NCBI RefSeq assembly: GCF_014302995.1
Contig: NZ_CP060295.1
Coordinates: 5,447,501-5,511,500 of the forward strand
Origin: Variovorax sp. PAMC26660
Lineage (GTDB): Bacteria; Pseudomonadota; Gammaproteobacteria; Burkholderiales; Burkholderiaceae_C
Reading direction: 5' to 3'
DNA: 64,000 bases
Under the pieces are notes generated by a model. That model did no database searches. It had not been told where the DNA came from and saw only the letters and a program-made list of their open reading frames with translations. Made by a program: the position numbers and the translations under genes. Of the stretch, positions 10,323-40,815 are shown piece after piece. Every line of letters starts with the position of its first letter. The stretch's first letter is position 1.

Positions 10323-10422
10323 AGGCGGAGGGCGGAGCGGTCTTTACATGAAGCTTTTGTGACAAACGACAGTTGTGCGCGTCGCGCTTCGTCTTAGATG
10401 CAGCGCCTTCGCGACCGCCTTC

Positions 10423-23913: not shown

Positions 23914-24530
23914 GGCCCTCTGGCGGATCAACGATGTCCGCCTGCGGATGACCGGGTTCACCGATTGACCTAGGCTGAATCGGGTATGGCACCCCGGTGC
24001 AGTTTCGATGTCCACTTGCCTCCCTGCAAAAAGGGAAAAGCAAATGGGAACGAAGGCATTCCACAGCGCAATCGTCAGTTTGAAGCTGCCAGGCGACATG
24101 AGCGCCAGCGAGGAGATCGCGGCCCTGAGAGCGGCTGGTATTCCAGTCGACGCGCTGTGCAATGCCGAATCAGGCTTTCTCTTCGTGCGAGCCAGTCTGG
24201 ACAAAAGAACGAACTACTTCCGGTGGTTTGCTGGTGACATCGGGAGTTGCGGGGCTCCATCTTTTTCCGCCCTGAAAAATACGGCTCTATCCGTCGCACC
24301 GTCACCCGTCCAGCATCGTGCGGGCGTACCTGGACTATTGCCAGAACCATCCGACGCCATGTCTCGGTGCACGTTGATGGAGAGCGGGGCCCGGCGCACC
24401 CTGAGCCCGCACAGGCGCTGAACCCACGTCGCGCCACGCGAAGTCATTCGACCGTCACGAAGCGTCACTAGCATCCGCTTGAACATGCCCCCGCCGGGCG
24501 GCGGCCTTCGCCGGGCGTATCGACGATCTC
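23914..24530. other. Gene-poor stretch with at most one small uncertain ORF
   Basis: 617 bp between the WGR-DUF4303 gene and the STN gene, of visibly lower GC and less regular codon usage than its neighbours. Only the small ORF at 24044..24421 has a plausible start with a purine-rich leader. I see no RNA gene, repeat or convincing terminator. The promoter of the STN-sigma-FecR genes should lie in its last 100 bp, but I cannot place it. Confidence 0.5.
24044..24421 (+). CDS. Hypothetical small protein (uncertain)
   Basis: A possible 125-residue protein. It starts at ATG 24044 behind a purine-rich AAAAAGGGAAAAG leader, a plausible ribosome-binding region. The first 75 residues (MGTKAFHSAIVSLKLPGD, then an alpha-helical SASEEIAALRAAGI segment) look protein-like. 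The rest is Ser/Pro/Arg-rich and may be read-through after a frameshift, because other frames stay open over the same bases. No family recognised. It may be a decayed gene. Confidence 0.3.
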   Translation: MGTKAFHSAIVSLKLPGDMSASEEIAALRAAGIPVDALCNAESGFLFVRASLDKRTNYFRWFAGDIGSCGAPSFSALKNTALSVAPSPVQHRAGVPGLLPEPSDAMSRCTLMESGARRTLSPHRR

Positions 24531-25283
24531 ATGCGGCATGAACCTCCCTTCACTTTCACATTGGCAAGCAGCTTGGCTGCGCCCGCCGTCGCGCTTGCGC
24601 TGGCGGGCTGCATGACGCTGGCGGCCTTGAATGTGCGGGCGCAGACCGGGGTGGTGGCGCCGCGCGGCGACCGCACCGATGAGCGCGTCCGCTTCGACAT
24701 CGCACGACAGCCGTTGACAACGGCGCTGGAGCAGTACGGCCTTGCGACGGGTCTGCCGGTGTTCTTCGACGCGGCGCTGGTGGCCGGGCGCAACTCGACG
24801 CCGGTGCAGGCATCGGCCACGCCGACCGAGGCATTGCACACGCTGCTGCAAGGCACCGGCCTCGTCGCCGACTACACCGGCACCGGGTCGAGCGCCGTCT
24901 TCGTGCTCAAGCCCGCATCGAACGATGTCGCGCAGCCCACGCCCCGCGCGATGCCCGACGCCGCACCCGCAGCCCCCGTGCACCGCAGCTACGACGGCCT
25001 CGTTCAAACCCGCATCTGGGAAGCCTTCTGCGGCAACCCGCGCACCGCGCCCGGCAGCTACCGCACCGCCATGCGCTTCGTGATCGACGGCACCGGCCGC
25101 ATCGCCAACGCCTTCCTGTTGCACACCAGCGGCGACCGCGCACGCGACGGCGCGATCCTCGACACCCTGCGGCAGATCCGCATCGAACAGCCGCCGCCGC
25201 CCGACATGGCGCAGCCGCTCACGATGCTGATTCTTCCGCGCTCGCAAACGCCGGGGCTCGAATGCCCGGCGGCGCGGCACTGA
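24531..25283 (+). CDS. Soluble periplasmic STN + TonB-C-like signalling protein
   Basis: A 250-residue exported protein, probably the periplasmic trigger of the adjacent sigma/anti-sigma pair. Residues 10-38 are a signal peptide. Residues 52-126 match the secretin/TonB short N-terminal (STN) domain: FDIARQPLTTALEQYG, then a strand-loop ending VLVADYTG-like. Residues 127-160 are a Pro/Ala linker. Residues 161-237 resemble the TonB C-terminal domain (MRFVIDGTGRIANAFLL and PPPDMAQPL). STN domains normally sit on TonB-dependent receptors or secretins and contact FecR; here there is no outer-membrane barrel. The sigma-factor gene starts 10 nt downstream. The ATG at 24531 has no strong ribosome-binding site. 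The domain reading is fairly secure, the signalling role inferred. Confidence 0.7.
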   Translation: MRHEPPFTFTLASSLAAPAVALALAGCMTLAALNVRAQTGVVAPRGDRTDERVRFDIARQPLTTALEQYGLATGLPVFFDAALVAGRNSTPVQASATPTEALHTLLQGTGLVADYTGTGSSAVFVLKPASNDVAQPTPRAMPDAAPAAPVHRSYDGLVQTRIWEAFCGNPRTAPGSYRTAMRFVIDGTGRIANAFLLHTSGDRARDGAILDTLRQIRIEQPPPPDMAQPLTMLILPRSQTPGLECPAARH

Positions 25284-25293
25284 GCCGCCTGCG

Positions 25294-25842
25294 ATGCCCG
25301 AGAACGCGCTGCCCGCGCTTCGCAATTTCCTGGTCGCGCGCTATGACGAGCTGAAGCAGCGCCTTGCGCGCCGGCTCGGCAACGCCGACCAGGCCGGCGA
25401 TGCGCTGCAGGACACCTGGCTGCGCCTGGAAAGCCGCGACGACATCGACGGCGTGCGCGATCCGGCTTCGTACCTGCTGCGCGTGGCCGTCAACCTGGCC
25501 TACGACCAGTCGAGCCGGCAGGGCCGGCTGGCCACCGCCGAAGAAATCGATGCGGTGCTCGAAGAGGCGCATGACCCCGCGCCCGGCCCGGCGCAGATCG
25601 CGGAAGACCGCTCCGAGATGGCCGCGCTGGCCGCGCTGATCGAGCGCATGCCGGCACGGCGCCGGCAGATATTGGTGATGGTGCGCTGGGAGCATCTGCC
25701 GCAGCGCGAGGTGGCGGCGCGGCTCGGGATTTCGCTGCGCACGGTCGAGAAAGAACTCAAGGACGCGCACGACTACTGCGCCGCCCGCATGGGCCGTCCG
25801 CTCGCCATGCCCGCGTCGACGTCTGCACCGCATGAAAAATAA
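25294..25842 (+). CDS. ECF sigma factor, FecI-like
   Basis: A 182-residue extracytoplasmic-function sigma-70 factor. Region 2 spans about residues 8-78 (AGDALQDTWLRLESRDD, PASYLLRVAVNLAYDQ) and region 4 about 108-165 (MPARRRQILVMVRWEHL, then the HTH QREVAARLGISLRTVEKE). Region 1 and region 3 are absent, as expected of the FecI group. The next gene is its FecR-like anti-sigma factor, 30 bp on, and the upstream gene encodes an STN protein, so this is a cell-surface-signalling sigma factor. Its likely targets are the giant haemagglutinin gene downstream and perhaps its paralogue. No target promoter could be assigned with certainty. Confidence 0.9.
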   Translation: MPENALPALRNFLVARYDELKQRLARRLGNADQAGDALQDTWLRLESRDDIDGVRDPASYLLRVAVNLAYDQSSRQGRLATAEEIDAVLEEAHDPAPGPAQIAEDRSEMAALAALIERMPARRRQILVMVRWEHLPQREVAARLGISLRTVEKELKDAHDYCAARMGRPLAMPASTSAPHEK

Positions 25843-25872
25843 AGTGCGGTTCCCCGCGCCCAGAACAGTCTC

Positions 25873-26865
25873 ATGGATATGACACACAACGGCGAGCCCG
25901 ACAAGGCGGATCAGCTGCGGCGCGAAGCGCAGGCCTGGTTGCGCCGGCTCACGTCCGGCGAGGCCACGCAGCGCGACATCGAGGGCTTTCGCCGCTGGCA
26001 GGGCAGCAGCCCGCTGCATTCGTCGGCGTTCGTGGAAGCCAAGAGGCTGTGGAAGGTGCTCGACCCGGCCATCGGCCAGATGATGGCGAACAACCCGGCG
26101 CTGCTGTCGAGCCATCGGCAGGCGGGGCGCCGGCCGTTGGTCGCGCGCCGCGCTTTTCTCGGTGCGGCTGCGAGCGCAGCGGGTGTGGCCGGCATTGCCG
26201 CGATCTGTCCGCCGCTTGGCCTGTGGGCCCCGGTCAGCGAATGGAATGCCGACTTCCGCACGGCCACCGGCGAGCAGCGTTCTGTGGCGCTGGCCGAGGG
26301 CATCGACCTGACGCTGAACACGCAGACCAGCGTGCAGCGCCAGACCGTCGAGGGCCGCACCGTCGGCATCGACCTGATCGCGGGCGAGGCGGCGGTCGAC
26401 ATGTCTTCCACGCGGCAGGCCTTCAACGTGGTCGCGGGCGCGGGGCGCAGCGAGGCCGACGCCGGGCGCTTCGAGGTGCGCTATCTCGACGGCAGTGCCT
26501 GCGTGACCTGCATCGAAGGCCGCGTGCGCGTGGCGCATGCAACCGGCGCGCGCGTGCTGGAGGCCGGGCAGCAACTGATCTACAACGCCGACTCGCTCGG
26601 CAAGGTCGCCGCCATCCAGCCGGCGGACGTGTCGGCGTGGCGCACCGGTGTGCTGGTGTTCCGGCAGACGCCGCTGGCGCGCGTGGTGGAAGAAATCAAC
26701 CGCTACCGGCCGGGCCGCGTGCTGCTGCTGGCCAAGCGCCTGAAAGACCGCGAGGTCAGCGGCCGTTTCGCCGTTGCCGCGCTCGACACGGTGCTGGTGC
26801 AGATCCAGCGCTCGTACGACCTTGATGCACGTGCGCTGCCCGGTGGCGTGCTGCTGCTTAGCTGA
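25873..26865 (+). CDS. FecR-like anti-sigma/sigma regulator
   Basis: A 330-residue inner-membrane regulator. The N-terminal cytoplasmic domain (about 10-62; AQAWLRRLTSGEATQRDIEGF, RWQGSSPLHSSAF) is the FecR_N/DUF4880 type that binds the sigma factor. A single membrane segment follows at about 95-113, preceded by a twin arginine (RRAFLG, residues 92-97). The periplasmic FecR domain covers about 125-235 (FRTATGEQRSVAL, LNTQTSV, GEAAVDM). The C-terminal DUF4974/STN-like domain covers about 250-328 (VFRQTPLARVVEEINRY). It is expected to hold or activate the sigma factor until the STN protein signals. The giant haemagglutinin gene starts 135 bp downstream. Confidence 0.9.
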   Translation: MDMTHNGEPDKADQLRREAQAWLRRLTSGEATQRDIEGFRRWQGSSPLHSSAFVEAKRLWKVLDPAIGQMMANNPALLSSHRQAGRRPLVARRAFLGAAASAAGVAGIAAICPPLGLWAPVSEWNADFRTATGEQRSVALAEGIDLTLNTQTSVQRQTVEGRTVGIDLIAGEAAVDMSSTRQAFNVVAGAGRSEADAGRFEVRYLDGSACVTCIEGRVRVAHATGARVLEAGQQLIYNADSLGKVAAIQPADVSAWRTGVLVFRQTPLARVVEEINRYRPGRVLLLAKRLKDREVSGRFAVAALDTVLVQIQRSYDLDARALPGGVLLLS

Positions 26866-26954
26866 TGTTTGTGACAGCTTGATTGGCCCCCGCACACGGT
26901 CAGGATTGAAAAAGTTAGCGGTTTTGTTTGCGTCCCCCGGTCTCTCCAGTGAGG

Positions 26955-26971
26955 GGCACAGATTCTGTGCC
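26955..26971 (+). promoter_or_regulatory. Perfect hairpin GGCACAGATTCTGTGCC in the leader of the giant exoprotein gene
   Basis: Two 8-bp arms around a single T, 29 bp before the exoprotein ATG and within the 135-bp FecR-exoprotein gap. As DNA it could be an operator; as RNA its one-base loop would need an opened stem. The same gap carries TTTGTGACA at 26868-26876, which also occurs after the first exoprotein gene (10356-10364). A transcription start has not been located. Confidence 0.4.
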
Positions 26972-27000
26972 GGTGCATTTCATTCTTTACTGGGCGTCAG

Positions 27001-30000
27001 ATGAACACACACGAGGGACACAACAAGCGCAAGCAGGGCGCTGTTGTGCATGCGAAGAGCTTCCGGATTTCGCCACTGGCGCAAGCGATGGCGCTGGCAT
27101 TGGCGGCCGGCGCGGCCACGGCGCCGGCGCACGCGCAGCAGCGCGCCTTCAGCCCCGGCTGGTTCAATGCCAAGGGCGCCGCGCAGGCCACGGCGACAGC
27201 CACCGGCATGCTGCCCAACGGGCTGCCCGCGTCCAGCCTCACGAATCCGGCCGGCCAGCAGCAGCGCGCCAACGAACAGCTCAAGCAGTCGATCAGCAAC
27301 CTGAACCTGGCGGCACGCGGCATCGCGGCGCAGCAGGCGGCACAGGCCGCCGCGCGCGCGGCTGCACAGAACGATCCCTCGGTGCCCGACGGCCTGGCCG
27401 AAGGCGGCCTGAAGGTCGACACGAATTCGCTGACGGCCGGCTGGCTCAATGCGCGTCCGCTGACGGGTGACTCGCAGAAGAACGTCGACGGCCGCACCGT
27501 GGTCACGGTCGAGCAGACGGCCGACAAGGCGATCCTGAACTGGGAGACCTTCAACGTCGGCAAGAACACCACGGTGGCCTTCGCGCAGCAGAAAGATTGG
27601 GCGGTGCTCAACCGCGTCAACGACCCGGCCGCGCGTCCGTCGCAGATCCAGGGGCAGATCAAGGGCGACGGCACGGTGATGGTGGTCAACCGCAACGGCA
27701 TCGTCTTCAACGGGACGGCGCAGGTCGACACGCGCAACCTCGTGGCCGCGGCAACGCAGTTCGATGACGCGCAGTTCCAGTCCGGCGGCGTGTACGGCAA
27801 CGGCCTCACGCCCAATTTCAAGAACGCGCAGGGCCGCGTCGAAGTGCAGGCGGGCGCGCGCATTTCCACGCCTGCGCCGGCATCGGCCACGCAGGGCGGC
27901 GGCTACGTGCTGCTGCTGGGCAGCGAGGTGCGCAGCGCTGGCGAGATCGCCACGCCCGGCGGGCAGACGCTGCTCGCGGCGGGCGACAGCTTTGCCATCC
28001 GCAAGGGCGTGGGCACCGACGGCAACCAGACATCGACCACGCGGGGCAACGAAGTGGCCGTCACGCTGGCGGCCGACAGCAAGGCCGGCCTCGTCGTCAA
28101 CACCGGCCTGATCCAGGCGCCCACCGGCGACGTCACGCTGGCGGGCCGCGAGGTGGTGCAGAACGGCGTCGTGCTCTCCAGCACCTCGGTGAATGCGCGC
28201 GGCACGGTGCACCTGGCCGCGACCGGTGCCGCCGGCAAGGTCACGCTCGGCGAGGGCAGCACCACGGCCATCGTGCTCGACACCAGCGGCACCACCGCGC
28301 TCGACAGCCAGCGCACCGCGCTCATGGCACCGGCCGTGCCTCAGGAGGGGCAGAGCTTCAGCCTGGCGGGCAACGACCGGCGCGACCTCTCGCGCGTGGA
28401 CGTGGCCAGCGGCGGCACGGTGGAGTTCCAGAAAGACTCGCTCACGCTGGCCACCGGCGGCCAGGTGGTCGTCGACGCCAGGCAGCGCAGCCTGGTGCGC
28501 GAGGGCGCGCGCATCGACGTGTCGGGCGCGGTGGGCGTGAAGCTCACCATGGAGTCGAACAACGTCAAGATCAACGTGCAGGGCAACGAGCAACGCGACG
28601 CGCCGCTCAACCGCGACAGCAAGAACCTCAACAACAACGACCTGTGGATCGACCGGCGCACGCTGGTCTTCGTGCCCGGCGGCACCAACGGCTACCAGGG
28701 CGAGCGCTGGTACACGGGCGGCGGCCTGCTCGAAGTCGGCGGCTACCTGGGCACGCAGGGCCACACGGTGGGCGAGTGGATGGCGCAGGGCGGCGCGGTG
28801 AGCTTCACCGGCGGCGACGTGGTCACGCAGCGCGGCTCCAGCATCAACCTGTCGGGCGGCACGCTCGACGTGCTCACCGGCACCATCAACCAGAGCTGGC
28901 TCAAGGGCGCCGACGGTCGGCTGTACGAAGTGTCGAAGGCGCCGGGCGACCTGAAGTACACGGGCGTCTACAAGGGCTTCGAGGACGAGCACGTGCGCTG
29001 GGGCAAGAACGCCACCGGCTTCTTCTACAACCCGCTGATCGGGCCGCAGAAGCGGCTGGAAAACGGCTACACCGTGGGCCGCGACGCGGGCATGCTCATC
29101 GTCGGCACCAAGGGCGCGGTGCTCGAGGGCGACATCGTCGGCGAAACCTTCCAGGGCGACCGGCAGACGCAGGCGCCGCAGGCCGGGCTCGACGGCTACA
29201 GGCAGTCGACCAGCGCGGCGCCGCAGCGCGGGCAACTCATCGTGGGCAACTACGACGCGTACTTCGACAAGAACACCGGCACGCTGTACCGCCGGCTCGA
29301 CCCCGCGGGCATCAAGAACGCGGTGCTCGGCGACACGGCACAGGGCATTGCCGCGGGGCTCGACCTCGCGACCGTGCTGCCGGCCGAGCGGCGCGACACG
29401 CTCTATCTCGACACCGACCAGCTCAGCGGCTTCAAGCTGGGCGCGGTGCGCGTGGCGACCACCGGGAGCATCGCGGTCACGGGAGCGCTGCAGGCAGGCA
29501 ATGGCGGCAACATCACGCTGTACAGCCCGGGCGTGAAGGTCGATGCCGACCTGGTCGCGCATGGCGGCAGCATCCAGCTGGGCAACGTGCTCGAGCAGAT
29601 CAGCAACAACTACCTGAAAGACACGAGCTACATCCGGCCACCAGCCGACGGCACTGCGTCGGTGGTGCTCGCGGGCGGCGCGAAGCTCGACACCAGCGGT
29701 CTCTGGGCCAACGTGCTGAAGAACCCGCTCGACGCGGGTGGCCTGGCGTATCGCAACGGCGGCATCGTGTCGCTGCGCAGCATGGGCGACGTGGTGCTGG
29801 GCAACGGCAGCGTGGTCGATGTGTCTTCCGGCGCCGGGCTGCTGGCCAAGGCCAGGCAGCAGGGCGGCAAGGGCGGCAGCGTCACGCTCGAGGCCGATGG
29901 CTTCAACACCGGCAACGGCCACGTCGCGCTCGATGGCGCCGTGCTGCGCGGCCAGGGCGTGGACGGCGGCGGCACGCTCACGGTGCAGACGAGCCGCATC

Positions 30001-33000
30001 GCCATCGGCGACACATCGGGCACGGCGCTTGCCGACACGCTGATGCTCGGCGCGAATTTCTTCGACAAGGGCTTCAGCCGCTATGTGCTCATCGGCAACC
30101 ACGGCCTCACCGTGGCCGATGGCGCGCTGATCGACGTGACGATGCCGGTGTACCGCTTCGGCGCGAACGCGCAGGACCTCGCCATTGGCGGCAAGCCGGC
30201 CGATGCGCTGGAACTGTGGACGCCCCCGCTCTACCAGGAAGACGCCAGCAAGGCCGTGCTCACCCAGCGCAAGGGCGCGAGCCTGTCGCTGCAGGCCGGT
30301 ACCTCGACCACGCTCGCCAAGGAACTGCCGATGGTGCAGGCCGTGGTGGGCAGAGGTGCCGCGATCAATGTCGACCCGGGCCAGGCCATCGAGGTGCGCA
30401 GCGTCGGTCAGCTCACGGTGGACGGCACGCTGCGTGCGAACAGCGGGCGCATCGTGCTGAACACGGTGGACATCAGCAACACCGAGCTCGACAAGGCCAC
30501 GGCGCAAGCCCATGCGCGCTCGATCTGGATCGGTGAGCAGGGGGTGCTGGACGCCTCGGCGCACGCGGCCACCGCCACCGACGTCAACGGCAAGCGCTAC
30601 GGCCTGGTGCGCGACGGCGGCAGCATCGTGATCGGCGGCGAGATCGACACGGCGCTCGGCAAGACCACCGCGTCGCAGGACTTCATCGTCGTGCGGCCGG
30701 GCGCGCTGCTCGATGCATCGGGCACGCATGCGGTGCTCGACGTGCCCGGCATGGGCGCCACCGACGTGGCCAGCAACGGCGGCAGCATCTCGCTGGCCTC
30801 GTACAACGGGCTGTACCTGAACGGCACGCTGCGCGCATTCGCGGGCGGTGCACGCGCGGCCGGCGGCACGCTGGCCGTGGTGCTCGACACGCCGGGTCTG
30901 CGCCTGCACCTGGACCCGCTGGAGCAGGCACAGGACCGGGTGCGCCGGCATCGCGTGCTGGTGCTGGGCGTCGAGCAGGGCGCGCCCCTTGCGCCCGCCG
31001 CCTTGAAGCCCGGCGTGGACGACGGCATCCTCGAATACGGCCAGGGCCGGATCGGCACCGACACGGTTCGGCGCGGCGGCTTCGACAACCTCTCATTGTT
31101 CAGCGGCTCGACGCTCGCGTTCGAAGATGGCGTCGACCTGCGCATGCGGCAGAGCCTGCAGATCTATGCCGGCGGCCTTGCGCTCGCCAAGAACGCGCCC
31201 GATGACGCGCATGTGTCGCTGGCGGCCGCGCAGGTGCGGCTGGCCGGGTCGATGACATCGATCACGCGCGAAGTCCTGAGGGCGCCCGTCGCCGAAGGTG
31301 GCGTGGTGCGCGTGCCGTCCGGCACCCGCCTGGAGCTGTCGGGCGACCTGATCGATGTTCGCGACGGCATGGGCCACGGCGTCGCCGGCAAGGTCGCCAT
31401 GCTCGACAGCAAGAGCGAATCGCCCGTGACCGACCTGGCCGCCTTCGGCCAGATCACGCTGGCCAGCACCGGCGACCTGCGTTTCCTGCAGGGCAGGTCC
31501 GACGTCGGCACCTCCACCAGCCTCGTCGTGCCCGGCAGCCTGACCCTGCGCGCCGCGCAGATCTACCCGGCCACGGGCGTGGTGGCGCTGGTGTCCGCCG
31601 GCATGGCGCCGGACGGCAAGTACCGGCCCGACACGAAGCTGCGCATCGAGGGCACTGGCGCAACGCCGGACGTGCCGTACTCGGCCTTCGGCGACCTCAC
31701 GATGCGCGCCGCCGTCATCGAGCAGGGCGGCGTGGTGCGCACGCCGCTCGGGCACCTGACACTCGGCGACGCGCTCACCACCGACATCCGGCTGCTGCCC
31801 GGCAGCCTCACGTCCGTGAGCGGCGGGGGGCTGAACATGCCCTATGGCGGCACCGTCGACGGCATCAACTACCTGTACAACGGCAAGCAGGTCAAGCTCA
31901 CCGGCGTGGGCGCGGGCGATAGCTTCAACCGCAACCTGACGATCGGCCTCAGCTTCATGGGGGCCAGCGTGCAGGGCCAGGAGGGCGCGGCGCTCGACCT
32001 GTCCGGCGGCGGCAATCTCACGGGCGCGGGCTTCGTGAGCGGGCGCGGCGGCTCGACCGACGCGCGCTTCAGCCCGCTGATGCAGATCGGCGCCAACGGC
32101 GGCTTCACGCTGCCGGGGCTCGCGACCAACCCGGTGTATGCCATCGTGCCCGGCGCGCAGCCGGCGGTGGCACCCACCGGTGCAGAGAAGGGCGCGGTCG
32201 ATCCGCTCGTCGGCCAGCAGATCACCATCGGCGCCGGCGTGCCGGGCCTGCCCGCGGGCACCTACACGCTGATGCCCTCGACCTACGCGCTGCAGAAGGG
32301 CGCCTTCCGCGTGGAGCTGAACGGCGCGGGCGGCCTCGGCGCGCCCACGCGTACGCAGGCGATGCGCAATGGCTCGTGGCTCGCCGCCTCGCAGCTGAGC
32401 GTGGGCCGCACCGGCGTCGGCGACACGCTGTTCCGCCAGGCCATCGTGACTTCGGCCGACGTGCTGCGCAGCTATTCGCAATACAACGAGACCGGCTACG
32501 CCGACTTCGTGCGCGCCGACGCGCTGCGCGTGGGCGTGCCGCGCGCCATGCTGCCGGTGGACGCCCGCAACCTGCACCTGCTGCTCGCTCCCGGCGCGGG
32601 CGCCGACGCCTTCCGCTTCAGCGGCGCTGCACGTTTCCAGGCGGGCGAAGGCGGCCGGGGCGGCTCCGTGGTGGCCGCGGCCTCCAATGCGACGACAGGC
32701 CTGGAGGTCGTCGCGGCCGGCGCGCCGGCGACGCCGGGCTTCAAGGGTGTCACGTACGACGCCGGCACGCTCAGCGGCATGAACGTGTCGCGCCTGGTCA
32801 TCGGCGGGATGCAGGGGGCTGTATACGGCCAGGGCGGCAACGTCATCAAGACCGGCGACAACGTGCAAAGCGTGGTGGTGCGCCAGGGTGCAGTGCTGTC
32901 GGCGCCCGAAGTGTTCCTGTCCGCGGTGGGCGTGTCGAGCGCCATTGCCCTGAGCGTGGTGGTCGAGCAGGGTGCGCGCATCAACACCATCGGCCGGGGC

Positions 33001-36000
33001 AAGGCGGCCTACGATTCGACCGACGGTTTCGTCTACGACGCGAGCGGCCAGATGCTGATGGTCTCCAACGGCAGGGTGAGCACGCTGCCGGTGCCGCCGA
33101 GCGAAGGCACGCAGGACAACCGCCGCCTGCAGATCGGCGTGTGTTCCAGTGCCTCTTGCAGCGGCCAGACCGAGCTGTATTCCGAAGGCACCATCGCGAT
33201 GGTCACGCCAGACCGCTTCGAGATGGGCGACGCGGTGCGCTACGGCACGCGCCACCTCACGCTGGCGGTGCGCGGCATCAACGTGGGCGACAACGCTGCG
33301 CTGGCCGCCGCCGCGGCGAACAACACGCTGCCGCCGGGGCTGGCCATGAGCCAGAGCCTGCTCGACCGCCTGCTGCGCGGCGACCGGCAGTACGGCGCGC
33401 CCGCGCTCGAGACACTGGAGCTCAGCGCGAGCGGTGGCGTCAACTTCTTCGGCACCGCGGCGCTGGACACCATCGACCCCGCCACCGGCAAGTCGACGAT
33501 GGCGCAGCTGGTGCTGGCCACGCCCGCCATCTACGGCCAGGGCGGCGCGGGCGACGTGGCGACCATCCGCACCGGCCGCCTGGTGTGGCAGGGCATGACC
33601 ACGGCGCCCACCTCGGTGGCGAGCGGCGGCGCGGGCACCGGCAGCGGCACGCTGAACATCGAGGCCGAGCGCATCGAGTTCGGCTACGGCCCCAACAGCC
33701 AGCCGAGCGGCCTGGACGACACCGCGCGCCTGGTGCTGGGCTTCGCCGACGTGAACCTCGAGGCCAGCGAGCGCGTGAGCGCCAACCACAAGGGCAGCCT
33801 CTCGGTCTACCAGTCGCAGGGCGCGTACGAAGCGGGCAAGGGCTACGCGTACAGCGGCGGCAACCTGAGCATCGTGGCGCCGCTGCTGACGGGCGAAGCA
33901 GGCTCAGTGAACCGCATCACGGCCGGCGGCAGCCTGCGCGTGGCCGCACCTACGGGCACAGCGGCGGCGGCCACCGGCGATGCTGCATTGGGCGCCGAAC
34001 TGAGCCTGCGCGGGCACGACGTGACGCTCGACACGGCCGTCGCGCTGCCCAGCGGCAAGCTCACGGTGAGCGCCGAGCGCGACCTTACGTTGACCGATCG
34101 CGCGGTGCTCGACCTGGCCGGCCGCAAGGTGCCGTTCAACGACGTCACCAAGTACAGCGCCGGCGGCGACCTGGTGCTCGAAAGCCTGCACGGCAACCTG
34201 CGGCAGGCGGCGGGCTCGGTGATCGACATCTCGGCGCAGAACAACCGCGCCGGCACGCTGAAGGCGATGGCGCTCGACGATGCGGCCGGCACGGTCGACC
34301 TGCAGGGCCGCATCCTCGGCGCGAGCAGCGGCCGCTACGACGCGGGCGGCACGCTGGTGCCGTTCCTTGCGGGCAGCGTGGAAGTGCGCGCGCGGCAACT
34401 CGGCGACGCCGAGTTCGCGGCGCTCAACCAGCGCCTGAACGATGGCGGCGTGTTCGGCGCGCGCAGCTTCCAGCTGCGCCAGGGCGACCTGGCCATCGGC
34501 AACGGCCTGAAGGCCGGTGAGGTGAACGTGTCGCTCGACAACGGCAGCCTCACCGTGACCGGCACCATCGACGCCAGCGGCGAGCGCGTGGGCCGCATCA
34601 GCCTGGCCGCGAAGAACAACCTCACGCTGGCCGGCAGCGCGGTGCTCGACGCGCACGGCAGCACGCTGCGCGTGGACAGCCACGGCAAGATCATCGATTC
34701 GCCGAACCGCGCGATGGTGGAGCTCACGTCGCACAACGGGCAGCTCACGCTGGGCTCGGGCGCGCGCATCGACCTGCGCCACGGCACCAACGCCAAGGTG
34801 GGCGGCGAGCCCGGCCAGAACGACGGCATGGCGCGCGGCACGCTGGAGCTCAACGCGGGCCGCACCGGCGAGACCAGCGGCGACATCCGCATCGACGCCA
34901 GCGGCAGCATTGCCATCGACGGTGCGCGCTCCATCGCGGTGAACGGCACCTGGCGCTACGACGACGCGCGCTTCGGCACCGATGCGGCGGCCACCGGCCG
35001 GCCCTACCAGGTCATCGACCAGGCCTACCTCGATGCCAAGCACCTGCAGAGCACCGCCTTCATCGACAACGCGCTGGCCAACACCGCGCTGATGAACGGC
35101 AAGCTCGCGGGCCTGAACAACGCGCGCTATGCCGACGCCTTCCATCTGCGCCCCGGCGTGGAAATCGTCAGCAAGACACCCGACGGCGACATGGTGGTGC
35201 AGGGCGACATCGACCTGTCGGGCTACCGCTATGCCAGTGCCAACCCGCATGCGCAGAAGACCGGCGTGTACGGCTCGGGCGAGGTGGGCAAGCTGGCCAT
35301 CCGCGCGGGCGGCAACCTCGACATATTCGGCAGCATCAACGACGGCTTCATGCCCCCACCCGCCACGCAGGACGACGGTGGCTGGCTGCTGCTGCCCGGC
35401 ACCAACCTGCTGGGCGGCGATGTCGTGGTGCCGCGCGGCGGCGTGGTGCTGGCCGACGGCACCGTCTTCGAGGCCGGTGTCACCCTGAACTACGACTTGC
35501 CGATCAGGCCGATGGATTTCGGGGCCGGCCAGTTGATTCCGACGACAAGCGTGCTGGCCGCGCCGCTCGAACTGAAGGTGGGCACCGTGCTGAGCGCCGA
35601 CGTGCGCGACGCCTCGGGTGCACTGTTGTATGCGGCGGGAAGCATCGTGGGCGGCACCAGCGTGACGCTGCCGGTGGGCACGCGCCTGGGGGCCGGCATG
35701 CGCCTGCCGTCGAATGCGACGCTGTCCGGCGTGGTGTGGCCCAAGGGCGTGCCGCTGCCCGGCGACGGCACGAAGTACGTGATGAACGGTGCCGTCACGC
35801 TGCCGCTGGGCGCGGTGTTGCCGGCAGGCACCAACATCAAGCTGCCCGACGGCGTGGCCTCGGTGAACCTTCGTCCGGACGGTGCCGGCAGGTTGTGGGC
35901 CGCGGCGGCGATGCTGCCCGAGGGCTCTCAGTCGTGGTCGGTGCGGCTGCTGGCCGGCGCGGACCTGGACGCGGCCGACAACCGCATCGTGCAAGTGCAT

Positions 36001-39000
36001 CCGGCGGCGGGCCAGGGCAACCTGCGGCTGGCGGACAGCCACTATGGGCTGTTCGGCAAGCTGCTGCCGCCCAAGGGCGCCCAGCTCTGGACCCAGTTCG
36101 CGCAGGACGACCTTGGCTCCCTCGGGATCGAGGTCAAGGCCGGCGAGCCGATCGACGCGAAGTGGCTCGAGGACATGGGCGCGGGCACGATCGAATCGCT
36201 CTGCGCCAATACGCCGGCCTACTGCGTGCTCAAGAGCGCCTGGGGCTGGTCGCAGAAAGCAGCGGACGACCTGGCGCAGAGCGGGGTGACGGTCAAGGTG
36301 GGCGATCCGGTCGATCCGCAAGTTGTCGGCAACGTGGACGACTTCTGCATGAGTTCGCCGGAATACTGCGTTTCCGCCAACAAGCCCGAATACGCACCCA
36401 CGCCAGCCAGCGTGCGTTTCAGCGTGGTGCGCACCGGTGCGGCCGATCTCGACCTGCTGGCAGCCGGCAACCTGCGCATGGACTCGCTGTTCGGCGTGTA
36501 CACGGCCGGCGCTTCGTCGCAGGCCGCGCGGGCCGGTGACCCCTACAACCTGCCGCGTGCGGTGGGACCCAACGGCACGGTGCTCAACGATGTGGACGGC
36601 GCTTACGAGAAGTTCGTCAACGGCGGTGCGCAGAGCCTGGCGCGCGCCTGGTATCCGGCTTCCGGCGGCAACCTGACGCTCAAGGCCGGTGGCGACTTGA
36701 GTGGCGACATCATGCTGAGGCGGACAGACTCCGGCGCGGGGCGGCCAAATCCCGCCGACACCGGGTTCGACAGCAGTGCCATCGGCAACTGGCTGTGGCG
36801 CCAGGGCACGGGCGGCACCTTCGGCGGCGCAAACGATCAGCCCACGGCGTGGTGGATCAACTTCGGCTCTTATGCGGGCGTCGGCAAGGGTGTGGCCGAC
36901 AAGTTGCTCGGCTTCACCGGCTTCGGCACGCTGGGCGGTGGCGACCTGCGCGTGGACGTGGGCGGCAACGCGGGCACGCAGACGCTGCGTGGCGCAAAAC
37001 TGGAGGGCTTCACCGACAACCGGCGCAGCCAGGGCCTCGTGCTGGCGGTGGGCGGCACTGGCCGCGTGCTGGCCGACGGCAGCCTGAGCCTGACAGGGGG
37101 CGGCGACGTGCAACTGCGTGTAGGCGGCGCCCTCAATTCGCTCGATCGTCCGTTCTTGCAGGGGAGTGGCGGCGACGTCGACGCCGCGCTCAACGGCGTG
37201 GTCGTCAATCTGCGGGGCGATGTGCAATTGCAGGCCGGCAGCATCGGCAGCCTGCCCCTGACCTTCGGAACCTACTCGGTGCAGCAGTCGCCGCGCGAGA
37301 CCCGCGCCTACGACCCCTACACCGCGACCCGCGGGATGGCGCAAGGCGGCATCGTGCTGGCGCCGGGAGACGCGAACTACACGCTGAGCACGCGCGGCGA
37401 CCTGGTGGTCAAGGGCGTGATCGACCCGACGCGCGAGAACTTTCCCAATGCCACGCCGTTCAGCGCGAACGGCCTGTCGGGCCAAGGCAGGAGCTGGTTC
37501 AGCCTGTGGACGCCGAACACCGCCATCAACCTCTTCGGCGCGGGCGGCAACCTCGTTCCGGTGGCAGGCGGCACGGGCATCGCCGCGACCGACTCCGCGT
37601 ATGTGTATCCCTCGATCCTCAGCGCGGTGGCCGCCAGCGGCTCGCTCTTCTATGGCGACTCGGCAACCGCCATCGACACCGGCACCGGCACTGCGCTGCT
37701 GTTGGCGCCAGCGGCCAACGGCAGGCTGGAGTTCCTGGCCAGGGACTCGATCTACGCGGGCGGCAATACCGTGAGCCAGTCGGGCGCGGCGGCCGCGGCG
37801 CTGGCGACACCGCTGCATCCGGCCTTCACCGGCACGGCCATCGACGGCACGGGTTTCGGCAACCTCTCGGGCGGCAACAGCCTGCAAGACGCCGACCGCC
37901 GCCCGCTGTTCGCATTCGGCGCCGACACGGTGTCGGGCGAGGCGGTGGGCACCGGGCCGGCGCGCTTCTATGCGGTGCGCGGCGACCTGGTCGGCGTGAG
38001 CAGCGGGCGCATCATGCGCTTCACGACCGAGGACGAGATGCGCGCGGGCCAGACCTGGTACGACGGCGCACAGCCGGTGTGGATGATGGCCGGGCGCGAC
38101 ATCGTCTCCAGCGGCACGCCGATCGGAGGGGCCGACATCGTGAATGGCTACAAGATGCCTAGCTTCCGCAGCACCGGCAACCTGTTCGTGCACCAGAAGC
38201 CGGGCGACATCTCGGTGATCTCGGCGGGCCGCGACATCCTGTTCAGCACCTTCAACGTGGCCGGCCCCGGCACGCTGGAGATCACGGCGGGCCGCGACAT
38301 CCGCATGGACGGCACGGCCTCGGTCAGCAGCCTGGGGCCGGTGGTGCCGGGCGACAGCCGGCCCGGCGCGAGCATCGCGATGCTGGCCGGCGTGGGCGCC
38401 GGCGGGCCCGACTACGCGGGCTTCGCACAGCGCTACCTCGACCCGGCCAACCTGATGCAGAGTGGCCAGCCGCTGGCCGACCAGGCCGGCAAGGTGGTGA
38501 AGAACTACCACGGCAAGCTCAAGCTGGGTGACTGGCTGCGCGCCGAGCACGGCTACAGCGGCGACGAGGCGGGCGCGGCGGCCTGGATGGCGCAACGCCA
38601 GGCCAGCCTGGACGCGGAAGCCGGCAAGCCGCGCCGCGTGCTGGCCAACGACTACAGGCAGGCCAGCCAGCTGTACCTGGTGAACTGGCTCGAAGCCTCG
38701 CAGGGCTACGGCGGCAATGGCGGTGCACAGGAGGCGCTCGCCTTCTTCAACGCACTGCCGCCCGAGCAGCAGCGCAGCTACCTGCGCGGCGTGTACTTCG
38801 CCGAGCTGAAGGAAGGCGGGCGCGAATACAACGACGAGAACGGCGTGCGCTACGGCAGCTACCTGCGCGGGCGCAACACCATCGCGTCGCTGTTCCCGGG
38901 CACCCGCTACAAGGGCGACATCACGATGTTCGGTTCGGCCGGCATCAACACCCTGTTCGGCGGCGACATCGCGCTGCTCACGCCGGGCGGGCGGCAGGTG

Positions 39001-39792
39001 TTCGGCATCGAGGGCGCGGCGCCCAAGGCGGTGGGCACGCTGATTCCGGGCGTCATCACCCAGGGCGCGGGCGACATCTCGCTGTATTCGCTGGGCAGCA
39101 TCCTGCTGGGCCAGAGCCGGATCATGACCACCTTCGGCGGCAGTGTGCTGGGCTGGTCGGCCGAGGGCGACATCAACGCCGGCCGGGGCTCGAAGACCAC
39201 GCTGGTCTACACGCCGCCCAAGCGCGTGTACGACCGCTGGGGCAACGTGGTGCTGTCGTCTGACGTGCCGAGCACGGGCGCGGGCATTGCCACGCTGAAC
39301 CCGATTCCGGAAGTGCCGGCCGGCGACATCGACCTGATCGCGCCGCTGGGCACCATCGATGCGGGCGAGGCAGGCATCCGCGTGTCGGGCAACGTGAACC
39401 TGGCGGCACTGCAGATCGTGAACGCCGACAACGTGGCGGTGCAGGGCAAGAGCACAGGGCTGCCGGTGGTCGCGTCGGTGAACGTCGGCGCGCTGACCAA
39501 CGCCAGCGCGGCCGCCTCGCAGGCGTCGGCAGCGGCGCAGGACGCGATGCAGCGCGATCGCGCGGCACAGCGGCAGGCCTTGCCGTCGGTGTTCACCGTG
39601 CGCGTGCTGGGCTTCGGCGACGAGTCCGCGGGCGGTGCGCCGGGTGCCGGCGAAGTCAGGCGCAAGCCGGCGGAACAGGCGAGCTACGACTCGTCAGGCT
39701 TCATCCAGATGGTGGGACACGGTGCGTTGACCGACGCGCAGATCGCGCGCCTGAGCGAGAACGAGCGCCGCGGCCTGCCGCGCGGACGCTAG
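27001..39792 (+). CDS. Giant filamentous haemagglutinin family exoprotein (TpsA-like, DUF3739 type), complete
   Basis: A 4263-residue secreted exoprotein. An extended signal peptide ends near APAHAQ (residue 46). The TPS secretion/haemagglutination domain lies around residues 160-290 (TVEQTADKAILNWETFNVG, NRNGIVFNGTAQVDTRNL). A long right-handed beta-helix of Gly/Ala/Asp-rich repeats follows to about residue 3700. Near the C-terminus are a globular part with GGREYNDENGVRYGSYLRGR and a DUF3739-type region (SKTTLVYTPPKRVYDR, IDAGEAGIRVSGNV). It has a C-x4-C pair (nt 33142-33159) and a cysteine-bearing block (nt 36200-36370), matching the paralogue at 1..10322. An LPAGTVL-like block spans nt 35420-35860. 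It is the likely output of the STN-sigma-FecR genes before it. The needed TpsB pore is not in the window. Confidence 0.95.
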   Translation: MNTHEGHNKRKQGAVVHAKSFRISPLAQAMALALAAGAATAPAHAQQRAFSPGWFNAKGAAQATATATGMLPNGLPASSLTNPAGQQQRANEQLKQSISNLNLAARGIAAQQAAQAAARAAAQNDPSVPDGLAEGGLKVDTNSLTAGWLNARPLTGDSQKNVDGRTVVTVEQTADKAILNWETFNVGKNTTVAFAQQKDWAVLNRVNDPAARPSQIQGQIKGDGTVMVVNRNGIVFNGTAQVDTRNLVAAATQFDDAQFQSGGVYGNGLTPNFKNAQGRVEVQAGARISTPAPASATQGGGYVLLLGSEVRSAGEIATPGGQTLLAAGDSFAIRKGVGTDGNQTSTTRGNEVAVTLAADSKAGLVVNTGLIQAPTGDVTLAGREVVQNGVVLSSTSVNARGTVHLAATGAAGKVTLGEGSTTAIVLDTSGTTALDSQRTALMAPAVPQEGQSFSLAGNDRRDLSRVDVASGGTVEFQKDSLTLATGGQVVVDARQRSLVREGARIDVSGAVGVKLTMESNNVKINVQGNEQRDAPLNRDSKNLNNNDLWIDRRTLVFVPGGTNGYQGERWYTGGGLLEVGGYLGTQGHTVGEWMAQGGAVSFTGGDVVTQRGSSINLSGGTLDVLTGTINQSWLKGADGRLYEVSKAPGDLKYTGVYKGFEDEHVRWGKNATGFFYNPLIGPQKRLENGYTVGRDAGMLIVGTKGAVLEGDIVGETFQGDRQTQAPQAGLDGYRQSTSAAPQRGQLIVGNYDAYFDKNTGTLYRRLDPAGIKNAVLGDTAQGIAAGLDLATVLPAERRDTLYLDTDQLSGFKLGAVRVATTGSIAVTGALQAGNGGNITLYSPGVKVDADLVAHGGSIQLGNVLEQISNNYLKDTSYIRPPADGTASVVLAGGAKLDTSGLWANVLKNPLDAGGLAYRNGGIVSLRSMGDVVLGNGSVVDVSSGAGLLAKARQQGGKGGSVTLEADGFNTGNGHVALDGAVLRGQGVDGGGTLTVQTSRIAIGDTSGTALADTLMLGANFFDKGFSRYVLIGNHGLTVADGALIDVTMPVYRFGANAQDLAIGGKPADALELWTPPLYQEDASKAVLTQRKGASLSLQAGTSTTLAKELPMVQAVVGRGAAINVDPGQAIEVRSVGQLTVDGTLRANSGRIVLNTVDISNTELDKATAQAHARSIWIGEQGVLDASAHAATATDVNGKRYGLVRDGGSIVIGGEIDTALGKTTASQDFIVVRPGALLDASGTHAVLDVPGMGATDVASNGGSISLASYNGLYLNGTLRAFAGGARAAGGTLAVVLDTPGLRLHLDPLEQAQDRVRRHRVLVLGVEQGAPLAPAALKPGVDDGILEYGQGRIGTDTVRRGGFDNLSLFSGSTLAFEDGVDLRMRQSLQIYAGGLALAKNAPDDAHVSLAAAQVRLAGSMTSITREVLRAPVAEGGVVRVPSGTRLELSGDLIDVRDGMGHGVAGKVAMLDSKSESPVTDLAAFGQITLASTGDLRFLQGRSDVGTSTSLVVPGSLTLRAAQIYPATGVVALVSAGMAPDGKYRPDTKLRIEGTGATPDVPYSAFGDLTMRAAVIEQGGVVRTPLGHLTLGDALTTDIRLLPGSLTSVSGGGLNMPYGGTVDGINYLYNGKQVKLTGVGAGDSFNRNLTIGLSFMGASVQGQEGAALDLSGGGNLTGAGFVSGRGGSTDARFSPLMQIGANGGFTLPGLATNPVYAIVPGAQPAVAPTGAEKGAVDPLVGQQITIGAGVPGLPAGTYTLMPSTYALQKGAFRVELNGAGGLGAPTRTQAMRNGSWLAASQLSVGRTGVGDTLFRQAIVTSADVLRSYSQYNETGYADFVRADALRVGVPRAMLPVDARNLHLLLAPGAGADAFRFSGAARFQAGEGGRGGSVVAAASNATTGLEVVAAGAPATPGFKGVTYDAGTLSGMNVSRLVIGGMQGAVYGQGGNVIKTGDNVQSVVVRQGAVLSAPEVFLSAVGVSSAIALSVVVEQGARINTIGRGKAAYDSTDGFVYDASGQMLMVSNGRVSTLPVPPSEGTQDNRRLQIGVCSSASCSGQTELYSEGTIAMVTPDRFEMGDAVRYGTRHLTLAVRGINVGDNAALAAAAANNTLPPGLAMSQSLLDRLLRGDRQYGAPALETLELSASGGVNFFGTAALDTIDPATGKSTMAQLVLATPAIYGQGGAGDVATIRTGRLVWQGMTTAPTSVASGGAGTGSGTLNIEAERIEFGYGPNSQPSGLDDTARLVLGFADVNLEASERVSANHKGSLSVYQSQGAYEAGKGYAYSGGNLSIVAPLLTGEAGSVNRITAGGSLRVAAPTGTAAAATGDAALGAELSLRGHDVTLDTAVALPSGKLTVSAERDLTLTDRAVLDLAGRKVPFNDVTKYSAGGDLVLESLHGNLRQAAGSVIDISAQNNRAGTLKAMALDDAAGTVDLQGRILGASSGRYDAGGTLVPFLAGSVEVRARQLGDAEFAALNQRLNDGGVFGARSFQLRQGDLAIGNGLKAGEVNVSLDNGSLTVTGTIDASGERVGRISLAAKNNLTLAGSAVLDAHGSTLRVDSHGKIIDSPNRAMVELTSHNGQLTLGSGARIDLRHGTNAKVGGEPGQNDGMARGTLELNAGRTGETSGDIRIDASGSIAIDGARSIAVNGTWRYDDARFGTDAAATGRPYQVIDQAYLDAKHLQSTAFIDNALANTALMNGKLAGLNNARYADAFHLRPGVEIVSKTPDGDMVVQGDIDLSGYRYASANPHAQKTGVYGSGEVGKLAIRAGGNLDIFGSINDGFMPPPATQDDGGWLLLPGTNLLGGDVVVPRGGVVLADGTVFEAGVTLNYDLPIRPMDFGAGQLIPTTSVLAAPLELKVGTVLSADVRDASGALLYAAGSIVGGTSVTLPVGTRLGAGMRLPSNATLSGVVWPKGVPLPGDGTKYVMNGAVTLPLGAVLPAGTNIKLPDGVASVNLRPDGAGRLWAAAAMLPEGSQSWSVRLLAGADLDAADNRIVQVHPAAGQGNLRLADSHYGLFGKLLPPKGAQLWTQFAQDDLGSLGIEVKAGEPIDAKWLEDMGAGTIESLCANTPAYCVLKSAWGWSQKAADDLAQSGVTVKVGDPVDPQVVGNVDDFCMSSPEYCVSANKPEYAPTPASVRFSVVRTGAADLDLLAAGNLRMDSLFGVYTAGASSQAARAGDPYNLPRAVGPNGTVLNDVDGAYEKFVNGGAQSLARAWYPASGGNLTLKAGGDLSGDIMLRRTDSGAGRPNPADTGFDSSAIGNWLWRQGTGGTFGGANDQPTAWWINFGSYAGVGKGVADKLLGFTGFGTLGGGDLRVDVGGNAGTQTLRGAKLEGFTDNRRSQGLVLAVGGTGRVLADGSLSLTGGGDVQLRVGGALNSLDRPFLQGSGGDVDAALNGVVVNLRGDVQLQAGSIGSLPLTFGTYSVQQSPRETRAYDPYTATRGMAQGGIVLAPGDANYTLSTRGDLVVKGVIDPTRENFPNATPFSANGLSGQGRSWFSLWTPNTAINLFGAGGNLVPVAGGTGIAATDSAYVYPSILSAVAASGSLFYGDSATAIDTGTGTALLLAPAANGRLEFLARDSIYAGGNTVSQSGAAAAALATPLHPAFTGTAIDGTGFGNLSGGNSLQDADRRPLFAFGADTVSGEAVGTGPARFYAVRGDLVGVSSGRIMRFTTEDEMRAGQTWYDGAQPVWMMAGRDIVSSGTPIGGADIVNGYKMPSFRSTGNLFVHQKPGDISVISAGRDILFSTFNVAGPGTLEITAGRDIRMDGTASVSSLGPVVPGDSRPGASIAMLAGVGAGGPDYAGFAQRYLDPANLMQSGQPLADQAGKVVKNYHGKLKLGDWLRAEHGYSGDEAGAAAWMAQRQASLDAEAGKPRRVLANDYRQASQLYLVNWLEASQGYGGNGGAQEALAFFNALPPEQQRSYLRGVYFAELKEGGREYNDENGVRYGSYLRGRNTIASLFPGTRYKGDITMFGSAGINTLFGGDIALLTPGGRQVFGIEGAAPKAVGTLIPGVITQGAGDISLYSLGSILLGQSRIMTTFGGSVLGWSAEGDINAGRGSKTTLVYTPPKRVYDRWGNVVLSSDVPSTGAGIATLNPIPEVPAGDIDLIAPLGTIDAGEAGIRVSGNVNLAALQIVNADNVAVQGKSTGLPVVASVNVGALTNASAAASQASAAAQDAMQRDRAAQRQALPSVFTVRVLGFGDESAGGAPGAGEVRRKPAEQASYDSSGFIQMVGHGALTDAQIARLSENERRGLPRGR

Positions 39793-39809
39793 CCGACGAC
39801 GTCGCCGCC

Positions 39810-40370
39810 ATGATGTCGTTCTCTTGTGTGCCCTGCGGTGATGCCGCAGGGGGAGCTGCCGCCGTTGCCGCGCCACCGGATTTCCAGGCGCTGCTGGTGG
39901 CGAACTACGCGCAGTTGCACCGGCGGCTCGCGCGGCACCTGGGCTGCGCCGATGCAGCCACCGAGGGCCTGCACGACGCGTGGCTGCGCCTGGCCGACGC
40001 GGCGTATGCGGCCTCCGTGCAGAGCCCGGTGGCCTACATCTACCGCGTGGCCTGCAACGCCGCGATGGACCGCGTGCGCGCCGACCGCCCCTGGCAGTAC
40101 GCCAGCGATGCGCAAGACACGCTCGAACACCTCGTCGACCAGGCGCCAGGCCCGGAGCTGATCGCCGAGGCACGCTCCGACCTGAAGGCGGTCGAGCGCG
40201 CGATGCGGGGGCTGCCGAACCGGCACCAGGACATTCTGGTCGCCCTGCGCGTGCATGAACTGACGCGCCAGGAGGTGGCGGTGCGGCATGGGCTGTCGCT
40301 GCGGCGCGTGGACACCACGCTGCGGCAGGCGCTGATGCATCTGCCGTTAGGCCGGCAGATTGCGGCATAA
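39810..40370 (+). CDS. Second ECF sigma-70 factor
   Basis: A 186-residue ECF-type sigma factor starting 17 nt after the giant exoprotein stop. Region 2 lies at about residues 27-97 (ATEGLHDAWLRLADAAYA, SPVAYIYRVACNAAMDRV) and region 4 at about 120-178 (LPNRHQDILVALRVHEL, then HTH RQEVAVRHGLSLRRVDTTL). The layout resembles the sigma factor at 25294..25842, so the two are paralogues, but no FecR-like gene follows; the next gene is a 76-residue unknown. Its anti-sigma partner may be the FecR at 25873 or lie elsewhere. It may drive the other exoprotein copy or form a feedback loop. Confidence 0.85.
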   Translation: MMSFSCVPCGDAAGGAAAVAAPPDFQALLVANYAQLHRRLARHLGCADAATEGLHDAWLRLADAAYAASVQSPVAYIYRVACNAAMDRVRADRPWQYASDAQDTLEHLVDQAPGPELIAEARSDLKAVERAMRGLPNRHQDILVALRVHELTRQEVAVRHGLSLRRVDTTLRQALMHLPLGRQIAA

Positions 40371-40672: not shown

Positions 40673-40815
40673 TTCACTGCTTTTTTCCTCCATGAACCGG
40701 AGGCATTCGGCGTGCCCGCAACACCGGGCCCGCGGCCCGCAGCGTGTTCGGCGGGCGCATGGTAGAAACCGCCACCCCACGTTTTCTTCTCTTGCGCCGC
40801 ACCGCCATCGTCTCC

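Follow-up and report, generated by a model that had tools for sequence, protein, structure and literature searches.

The five genes at positions 24531-40370 of a 64,000-nucleotide stretch of the Variovorax sp. PAMC26660 genome (contig NZ_CP060295.1, positions 5,447,501 to 5,511,500; the whole stretch is referred to below as the window) probably constitute, judging from domains, gene order and orthology, a cell-surface-signalling unit of the PUMA3 type (VreA-VreI-VreR) provided with its own PdtA-type exoprotein, TpsA. The genome is a single contig of 7.39 Mb (coordinates on it carry the prefix C1) and its closest named relatives are Variovorax. It holds the system in four copies, two of which have an extra gene for an extracytoplasmic function (ECF) sigma factor behind the exoprotein gene. 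The arrangement of signalling unit and exoprotein is already published; what is added here is the second sigma factor, the spread of the pho box that precedes the unit, the kinship of the sensor protein with a TonB protein and a likely many-to-one relation of exoproteins to transporter.

Gene content and relation to PUMA3

The features of the cluster are given below in window coordinates.

24531..25283, + strand: VreA-like periplasmic protein of 250 residues, with STN (PF07660, about residues 52-130) and TonB_2 (PF13103)
About residues 148-238 of the 24531..25283 product, + strand: C-terminal TolA/TonB-type domain of the VreA-like protein (domain search, predicted model)
25294..25842, + strand: ECF sigma factor ECF1, VreI-like, with regions 2 and 4
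25873..26865, + strand: FecR-type anti-sigma factor, VreR-like, with DUF4880 and FecR, and FecR_C only below its cut-off
27001..39792, + strand: TpsA exoprotein, PdtA-like, 4263 residues, with the two-partner-secretion (TPS) domain PF05860 and DUF3739 (PF12545)
39810..40370, + strand: second ECF sigma factor (ECF2), without an adjoining anti-sigma gene; ECF sigma match, 41% identity to ECF1

The original prediction had described five same-strand genes of these kinds with intergenic gaps of 10, 30, 135 and 17 nucleotides, and all positions and gaps were reproduced. The TPS domain lies at the N-terminus of TpsA (85.4 bits), so that the feature of type Vb, or two-partner, secretion is present. 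The product of the STN gene has no beta-barrel, and the barrel receptor of FecI-FecR-FecA signalling is therefore not present there. Identity to the Pseudomonas aeruginosa PA7 proteins was 38% for VreA, 43% for VreI and 40% for VreR; the vreA-vreI-vreR order is found in the window with its ECF and FecR orthologues, as is the PUMA3 hallmark, a barrel-less protein that joins STN to a TolA/TonB-type C-terminus. TpsA was aligned with PA7 PdtA in two pieces spanning nearly the full length (52.4% and 53.9% identity), and PA7 PdtA has the same TPS and DUF3739 domains.

Published sources are identified here by PubMed Central (PMC) accession. In P. aeruginosa, VreA is described as a receptor-like, barrel-less protein with an STN-like N-terminus and a TolA/TonB-like C-terminus, together with VreI and VreR (PMC2729926); the regulon comprises a TPS pair, exbBD and PA0696-PA0699 (PMC2729926, 2009), and the homologous sigma factor drives the homologous tpsA, pdtA (PMC2729926, PMC4971064). 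Four copies of the cluster are reported in R. palustris and Janthinobacterium; tpsA comes after three of them, and tpsB with exbBD after the fourth (PMC2729926). The implication of the original prediction that the arrangement was undescribed is thus not supported, the same wiring having been in print since 2009 for P. aeruginosa PUMA3 and, by genome survey, for several other genera.

With PUMA3/PdtAB of P. aeruginosa the present system shares the barrel-less STN-TolA/TonB protein, ECF and FecR in the same order, the TpsA with TPS and DUF3739, the set of PdtB, lectin-fused ExbB, ExbD, TonB4, porin, YbjN and PpiC, and a pho box before vreA. It differs in that TpsA directly follows FecR, whereas hxc type II genes lie between them in P. 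aeruginosa; in the presence of four clusters and one distant PdtB-type TpsB; in the second ECF sigma gene behind TpsA in two of the four clusters; and in the swapped order of PpiC and YbjN and the Trypsin/TonB-domain/DegP set that follows the TpsA of a sister cluster, A. Janthinobacterium and R. palustris also have four cluster copies, most of them followed by tpsA, and the tpsB-exbBD genes once; the fourth cluster is followed there by tpsB, whereas all four are followed here by tpsA, and the partial text of PMC2729926 makes no mention of a second sigma factor behind tpsA. The ECF sigma factor, the FecR-type anti-sigma factor and the STN domain are common to FecI-FecR-FecA signalling, but the beta-barrel receptor is not, STN being fused here to a TolA/TonB-type domain.

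Conservation in relatives

Conservation was assessed in the best 80 of 183 named loci and in a genus group of 101 genomes, taken to be Variovorax. TpsA was the next gene after FecR in 60/80 loci and started there within 0.4 kb of FecR, which leaves no room for a receptor gene. A TpsA was found somewhere at the locus in 68/80, TpsB or lectin-ExbB in 12/80 and either of these in 72/80; the eight loci with neither comprise two at contig ends, three from Pseudomonas, two from Bordetella and one that is unexplained. In the Bordetella locus L018, FecR is followed by DUF772 genes and then by type II secretion genes, like the Pseudomonas layout. Of the 20 VreA loci in which TpsA does not immediately follow FecR, half stand beside a TpsB-ExbBD-TonB operon, and VreA loci were found in alpha-, beta- and gamma-proteobacteria.

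Within the genus group, 70 full-length VreA-type genes (picked by hand as matches reaching at least position 213 of 227, with two contig-edge pieces uncounted) were present in 24 of the 101 genomes, exactly the same 24 that carry DUF3739 genes. A VreA-like gene lies 12.7-17.2 kb upstream on the same strand of 66 of the 74 DUF3739 TpsA genes (one overlapping row of 75 was left out), and the eight without it include short contigs and one case spanning contig ends. The barrel-less signalling unit joined to TpsA is accordingly real and conserved (60/80 loci; 66/74 DUF3739 genes), as the original prediction had proposed. In the gene-order comparison that it called for, neither a TonB-dependent receptor nor unrelated genes replace TpsA in most relatives, as judged with a receptor profile based on a handful of sequences from a single genome, which may overlook distant receptors; in one locus, L048, the flank encodes a probable receptor accompanied by a FecR and an ECF of its own.

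An ordinary FecI-FecR unit, with a TonB-dependent receptor encoded elsewhere and TpsA as an accidental neighbour, would agree with the membership of ECF1 and FecR in the FecI/FecR superfamilies and with the several long open reading frames of this genome that have STN matches near FecR genes. The conserved TpsA neighbour (60/80), the occurrence in the same 24 genomes as DUF3739, the pho box and the orthology to PUMA3 make this reading barely credible, and the remote classical receptor was rejected on these grounds.

In the sphingomonad loci L078, L087, L088 and L090 the VreA-type gene is divergent from a TpsB-ExbBD-TonB-porin operon, with ECF and FecR, where found, on the other strand.

Four exoproteins and one PdtB-type transporter

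Genome profile searches gave seven open reading frames with a TPS domain, four TpsB proteins and four short VreA-type proteins, four further VreA-profile matches being the STN parts of long open reading frames. A TpsB stands within about 2 kb of three of the seven TpsAs but near none of the other four, those with DUF3739, which are each equipped with a VreA-ECF-FecR set of their own; the genome has one PdtB-type TpsB. No TpsB adjoins the window TpsA, and the outer-membrane partner had been declared missing in the original prediction; this was ruled out by the PdtB-type TpsB operon at C1:5413684-5422555, beyond the window, of which the end lies 49 kb and the start 58 kb upstream of the cluster. 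The lone TpsB is 58% identical to PA7 PdtB vs 23% to the next PA7 TpsB. It is followed by a lectin-fused ExbB (57% identity to PA7 in the ExbB part, 59% in the lectin part), ExbD (75%), TonB (42%), Porin_5 (53%), a 250-residue protein without a Pfam match (45%), PpiC (45%) and YbjN (44%), an order that matches the PA0693-PA0699 layout except for the swap of the last two genes. The PdtB-ExbB2-ExbD2-TonB4-porin-PpiC-YbjN set is thus present in the genome, 49-58 kb off and not adjoining the cluster, and its single PdtB-type TpsB would be common to all four TpsAs.

Two further observations concern this operon. The ExbB-type protein (C1:5415439-5417241; L003:15440-17239) is fused to DUF2341 and a lectin-like Laminin_G_3 domain, and the fusion is kept in P. 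aeruginosa PA7 and in other tps operons. A segment like VRVPYIPQVVRDQIRDEVK is recognisable at the Porin_5 N-terminus in all aligned Porin_5 orthologues of tps operons, and is a possible TonB-contact region.

Sister cluster A (VreA-ECF-FecR-TpsA) is complete, has no ECF2 and is followed by Trypsin_2, TonB-domain and DegP-like PDZ genes:

C1:5442917-5445130, before the window: VreA, ECF and FecR of cluster A (genome profile searches)
1..10322, + strand: 3' part of the TpsA gene of cluster A (TPS/DUF3739 survey)
10486..11163, + strand: Trypsin_2-type protein of cluster A (domain search)
11241..11654, + strand: stand-alone TonB-type C-terminal domain protein, 137 residues (TonB_2 only below its cut-off)
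11718..13064, + strand: DegP-like protease with two PDZ domains (domain search)

The stand-alone TonB-domain protein has a PA7 relative at L100:1658-2410. Cluster C alone has a 183-residue gene without a Pfam match (C1:4535984-4536535) between FecR and TpsA. The TpsB genes at C1:4212817-4214316 and C1:6731149-6732648, each near its own TpsA, are probably a recent duplication, since their products begin with identical residues and score almost alike against ShlB (355.8 and 355.6 bits). Behind the cluster of the window, a PLD-like gene (PF13091) at 40759-42441 showed no sign of belonging to the unit.

The second sigma factor

ECF2 was present 40 times in 22 of the 101 genus-group genomes, every one of which belongs to the 24 VreA-bearing genomes (Fisher p = 3e-20); two of the 40 matches contain an internal stop. 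All 40 begin 0.7-1.1 kb behind a DUF3739 match, 37 of them with VreA 13.6-16.2 kb upstream, and 40 of the 74 DUF3739 TpsAs have an ECF2. In each of the 33 ECF2 loci that were read, the end of TpsA lies directly before ECF2. Among 200 genomes of the family, ECF2 was found in two further genera, both times behind TpsA, and it stands behind TpsA also in Steroidobacter and Bordetella ansorpii. A tree of 123 sigma domains was calculated by a quick method, with a long-branch warning, omitting L122 (under the score cut, its sigma gene having a stop) and five loci that repeat genes of the window genome; 34 tpsA-trailing sigma factors formed one side of a branch with a support of 99 in the SH-like approximate likelihood ratio test (SH-aLRT), and the three nearest sigma factors outside this clade (L018, L020, L024) do not lie directly behind TpsA. 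No FecR gene accompanying ECF2 was found in the window, and in one of the 33 ECF2 loci (L118) another ECF-FecR pair lies behind it. A search of the open-licence PMC literature, in partial texts, returned no second sigma factor behind tpsA.

In cluster D, a DUF772 gene (L008:7102-7710; C1:5984101-5984712) lies behind ECF2, and the start of its product resembles by eye that of PA7 phdA (PA0691-type). Similar DUF772 genes lie behind FecR in L018 and L024.

The pho box and candidate promoters

Three non-coding elements of the window were considered:

24441..24474, + strand: pho-box-like direct repeat (24441-24458) and -10-like element upstream of the VreA-like gene, score 18.7
26870..26906, + strand: conserved non-coding block before tpsA, a candidate ECF promoter, conserved in the window and 5 Variovorax orthologues
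10359..10394, + strand: promoter-like element GTGACAAACGACAGT-N16-CGTCT before the Trypsin/TonB-domain/DegP set of sister cluster A

The -10-like element of the first, TAGCAT, was recognised by eye 10 nucleotides after the repeat, and this region before vreA is conserved in 5 Variovorax orthologues. Pho boxes were scored with an assumed consensus and a threshold of at least 17 in 79 of the 80 loci (L025 had too little upstream sequence; loci that are related do not count as independent). A box was found before vreA in 45 of the 79, vs 3.3% of 395 windows drawn at random from these loci (Mann-Whitney p = 6e-28) and 3.3% of 395 shuffled sequences (p = 3e-25), and in many loci a -10-like TA element was seen by eye about ten bases after it. 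Clusters C, D and B, the last being the five-gene cluster of the window, each scored 18.7, and the PA7 box was recovered at 19.4. The pho box is spread well beyond Pseudomonas, which suggests that phosphate control is of long standing in this system across alpha-, beta- and gamma-proteobacteria rather than peculiar to Pseudomonas.

The 15-mer GTGACAAACGACAGT has two exact copies in the genome, one before the tpsB operon and one at window position 10359; only these are notable, as up to two mismatches gave 4 matches vs 6 for the reversed control. The tpsB-operon promoter, TGACA-N25-CGTCT, is kept in 4 of 13 tpsB-side regions examined (own, L060, L056 and L117), all beta-proteobacterial, and is close to that of PA7 phdA (TGACA-N26-CGTC), itself one of the 13; the spacing was not found in 8 of 12 tpsB upstream regions. 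The N25 and N26 spacings of TGACA/CGTC occurred 0 and 2 times in 1600 control windows. An unbiased spaced-motif search upstream of 60 tpsA genes returned mainly the end of the fecR coding sequence. Since the tpsA of this cluster is preceded by a conserved block of its own, the four clusters may differ in sigma specificity.

Readings of VreA function

The C-terminal profile of VreA matched the tps-operon TonB with an hhalign probability of 99.3 (E 1e-20). It scored 45-73 bits in 11 of 14 tps-operon TonBs, with 54.0 for that of its own genome, vs 28.8, 15.8, 12.4 and <2 bits for the remaining four TonB_C proteins detected in that genome; three sphingomonad tps-operon TonBs gave 27-29 bits, level with one unrelated TonB. 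The domain has a TolA/TonB fold in the predicted model, and a search of solved structures with VreA returned STN receptors, TonB matches being weak. The VreA C-terminus thus resembles the operon's own TonB more closely than the other TonBs of the genome. It has been likened to TolA/TonB in general (PMC2729926), and in the partial texts of the open-licence PMC literature no kinship with the operon's own TonB was found.

The profile scores, the predicted fold and the ten VreA loci that lack a TpsA behind FecR and adjoin a TpsB-ExbBD-TonB operon speak for VreA as a TonB look-alike, the C-terminal domain of which would dock on the outer-membrane partner of the operon TonB (TpsB or Porin_5) and report the presence or engagement of the ExbBD-TonB-driven complex. 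We regard this as a tentative possibility, as the three sphingomonad TonBs score like an unrelated one and the VreA C-terminal domain co-varies with the FecR C-terminus, in a test covering VreA, ECF, FecR and the TpsA secretion domain.

The original prediction proposed instead that the unit monitors its own exoprotein, VreA sensing the secretion or surface state of TpsA and the sigma factor adjusting tpsA expression. One sensor set per TpsA (66/74 DUF3739 TpsAs with their own VreA), alongside a transporter that seems shared, would be hard to understand if sensing were limited to the transporter or phosphate. However, across 60 loci (46 after removal of near copies, with approximate domain borders) VreA showed no co-variation with the secretion domain of TpsA, with r = -0.16 for STN and r = 0.19 for the C-terminal domain (partial 0.09, permutation p = 0.14); this is a weak test and concerns the secretion domain only, which tracks no other part well, its co-variation with ECF and FecR being poor too (r 0.06-0.23). 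Deletion of vreA in P. aeruginosa moreover left pdtA expression and the low-phosphate regulon unaltered (PMC4971064). Sensing of the exoprotein appears improbable on this evidence.

The same deletion, which also left virulence unaltered (PMC4971064, PMC7035377), favours a reading in which VreA is not a signal input, control being exerted by PhoB and the ratio of sigma to anti-sigma factor and VreA acting as a FecR stabiliser or persisting as a relic. A parallel is provided by the signalling domain of FoxA, which guards the anti-sigma factor FoxR without a signal (PMC11637429): in both cases a soluble STN would act on a periplasmic FecR-type protein, but the Fox domain is produced by cleavage of the receptor, whereas VreA is encoded as a free domain. 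This reading is doubtful, given that VreA has been retained together with ECF and FecR (70 full-length copies, 24/101 genomes; alpha-, beta- and gamma-proteobacteria) and that, under pure protection, the regulon should become more active once vreA is deleted, an effect that P. aeruginosa did not show (PMC4971064). A 2020 paper called both the function of VreA and the signal that induces PUMA3 unknown (PMC7035377).

Proposed mechanism

At low phosphate, PhoB would act on the pho box and switch on the vreA-ecf1-fecR operon, a step read here from the sequence and shown in P. aeruginosa. FecR would keep ECF1 at the inner membrane, with the STN domain of VreA docking on the periplasmic end of FecR, as family knowledge suggests. 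A periplasmic or outer-membrane cue would then lead to proteolysis of FecR, and ECF1 would transcribe tpsA, the sigma dependence being taken from P. aeruginosa pdtA only. The exoprotein would exit via the one PdtB-type TpsB of the genome, common to the four TpsAs. In the last and weakest step, read-through into ecf2 would occur only once the 13-kb gene had been crossed and would yield a second sigma factor without its own anti-sigma gene, probably a feed-forward amplifier or a driver of part of the shared export and protease genes.

Several observations weigh against this scheme. Sister cluster A has a low-scoring pho box (14.7), and pho boxes before tpsA are only slightly enriched (score at least 17 in 60 upstream regions: 7/60 forward vs 2.7% of controls and 7/60 reverse vs 0.7%; p = 6e-4 and 6e-3). 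The block at 26870..26906 lacks the spacing of the tpsB-operon and PA7 phdA promoters, and TGACA-N25/26-CGTC was found in 1/60 tpsA upstream regions and in 0/4 of the genome's own tpsA genes. A weak terminator-like hairpin overlaps the ecf2 start, so that co-transcription of tpsA and ecf2 is at most likely. The docking of VreA on FecR may be dispensable, since deletion of vreA in P. aeruginosa had no phenotype (PMC4971064, PMC7035377).

A bolder combination would make VreA a decoy TonB, with its C-terminal domain competing with the operon TonB for TpsB or the porin and the release of FecR depending on whether the exoprotein gate is engaged, and ECF2 a completion-coupled sigma factor, produced only after RNA polymerase has traversed the entire 13-kb tpsA, that commits the cell to assembling the common export and protease set; we consider this unlikely.

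Significance

Variovorax offers a setting in which phosphate control of the system can be investigated without recourse to a human pathogen. The relatedness of VreA's C-terminal domain to the export-operon TonB, and the conserved second sigma factor that trails the exoprotein gene, provide two testable leads on VreA and the PUMA3 signal.

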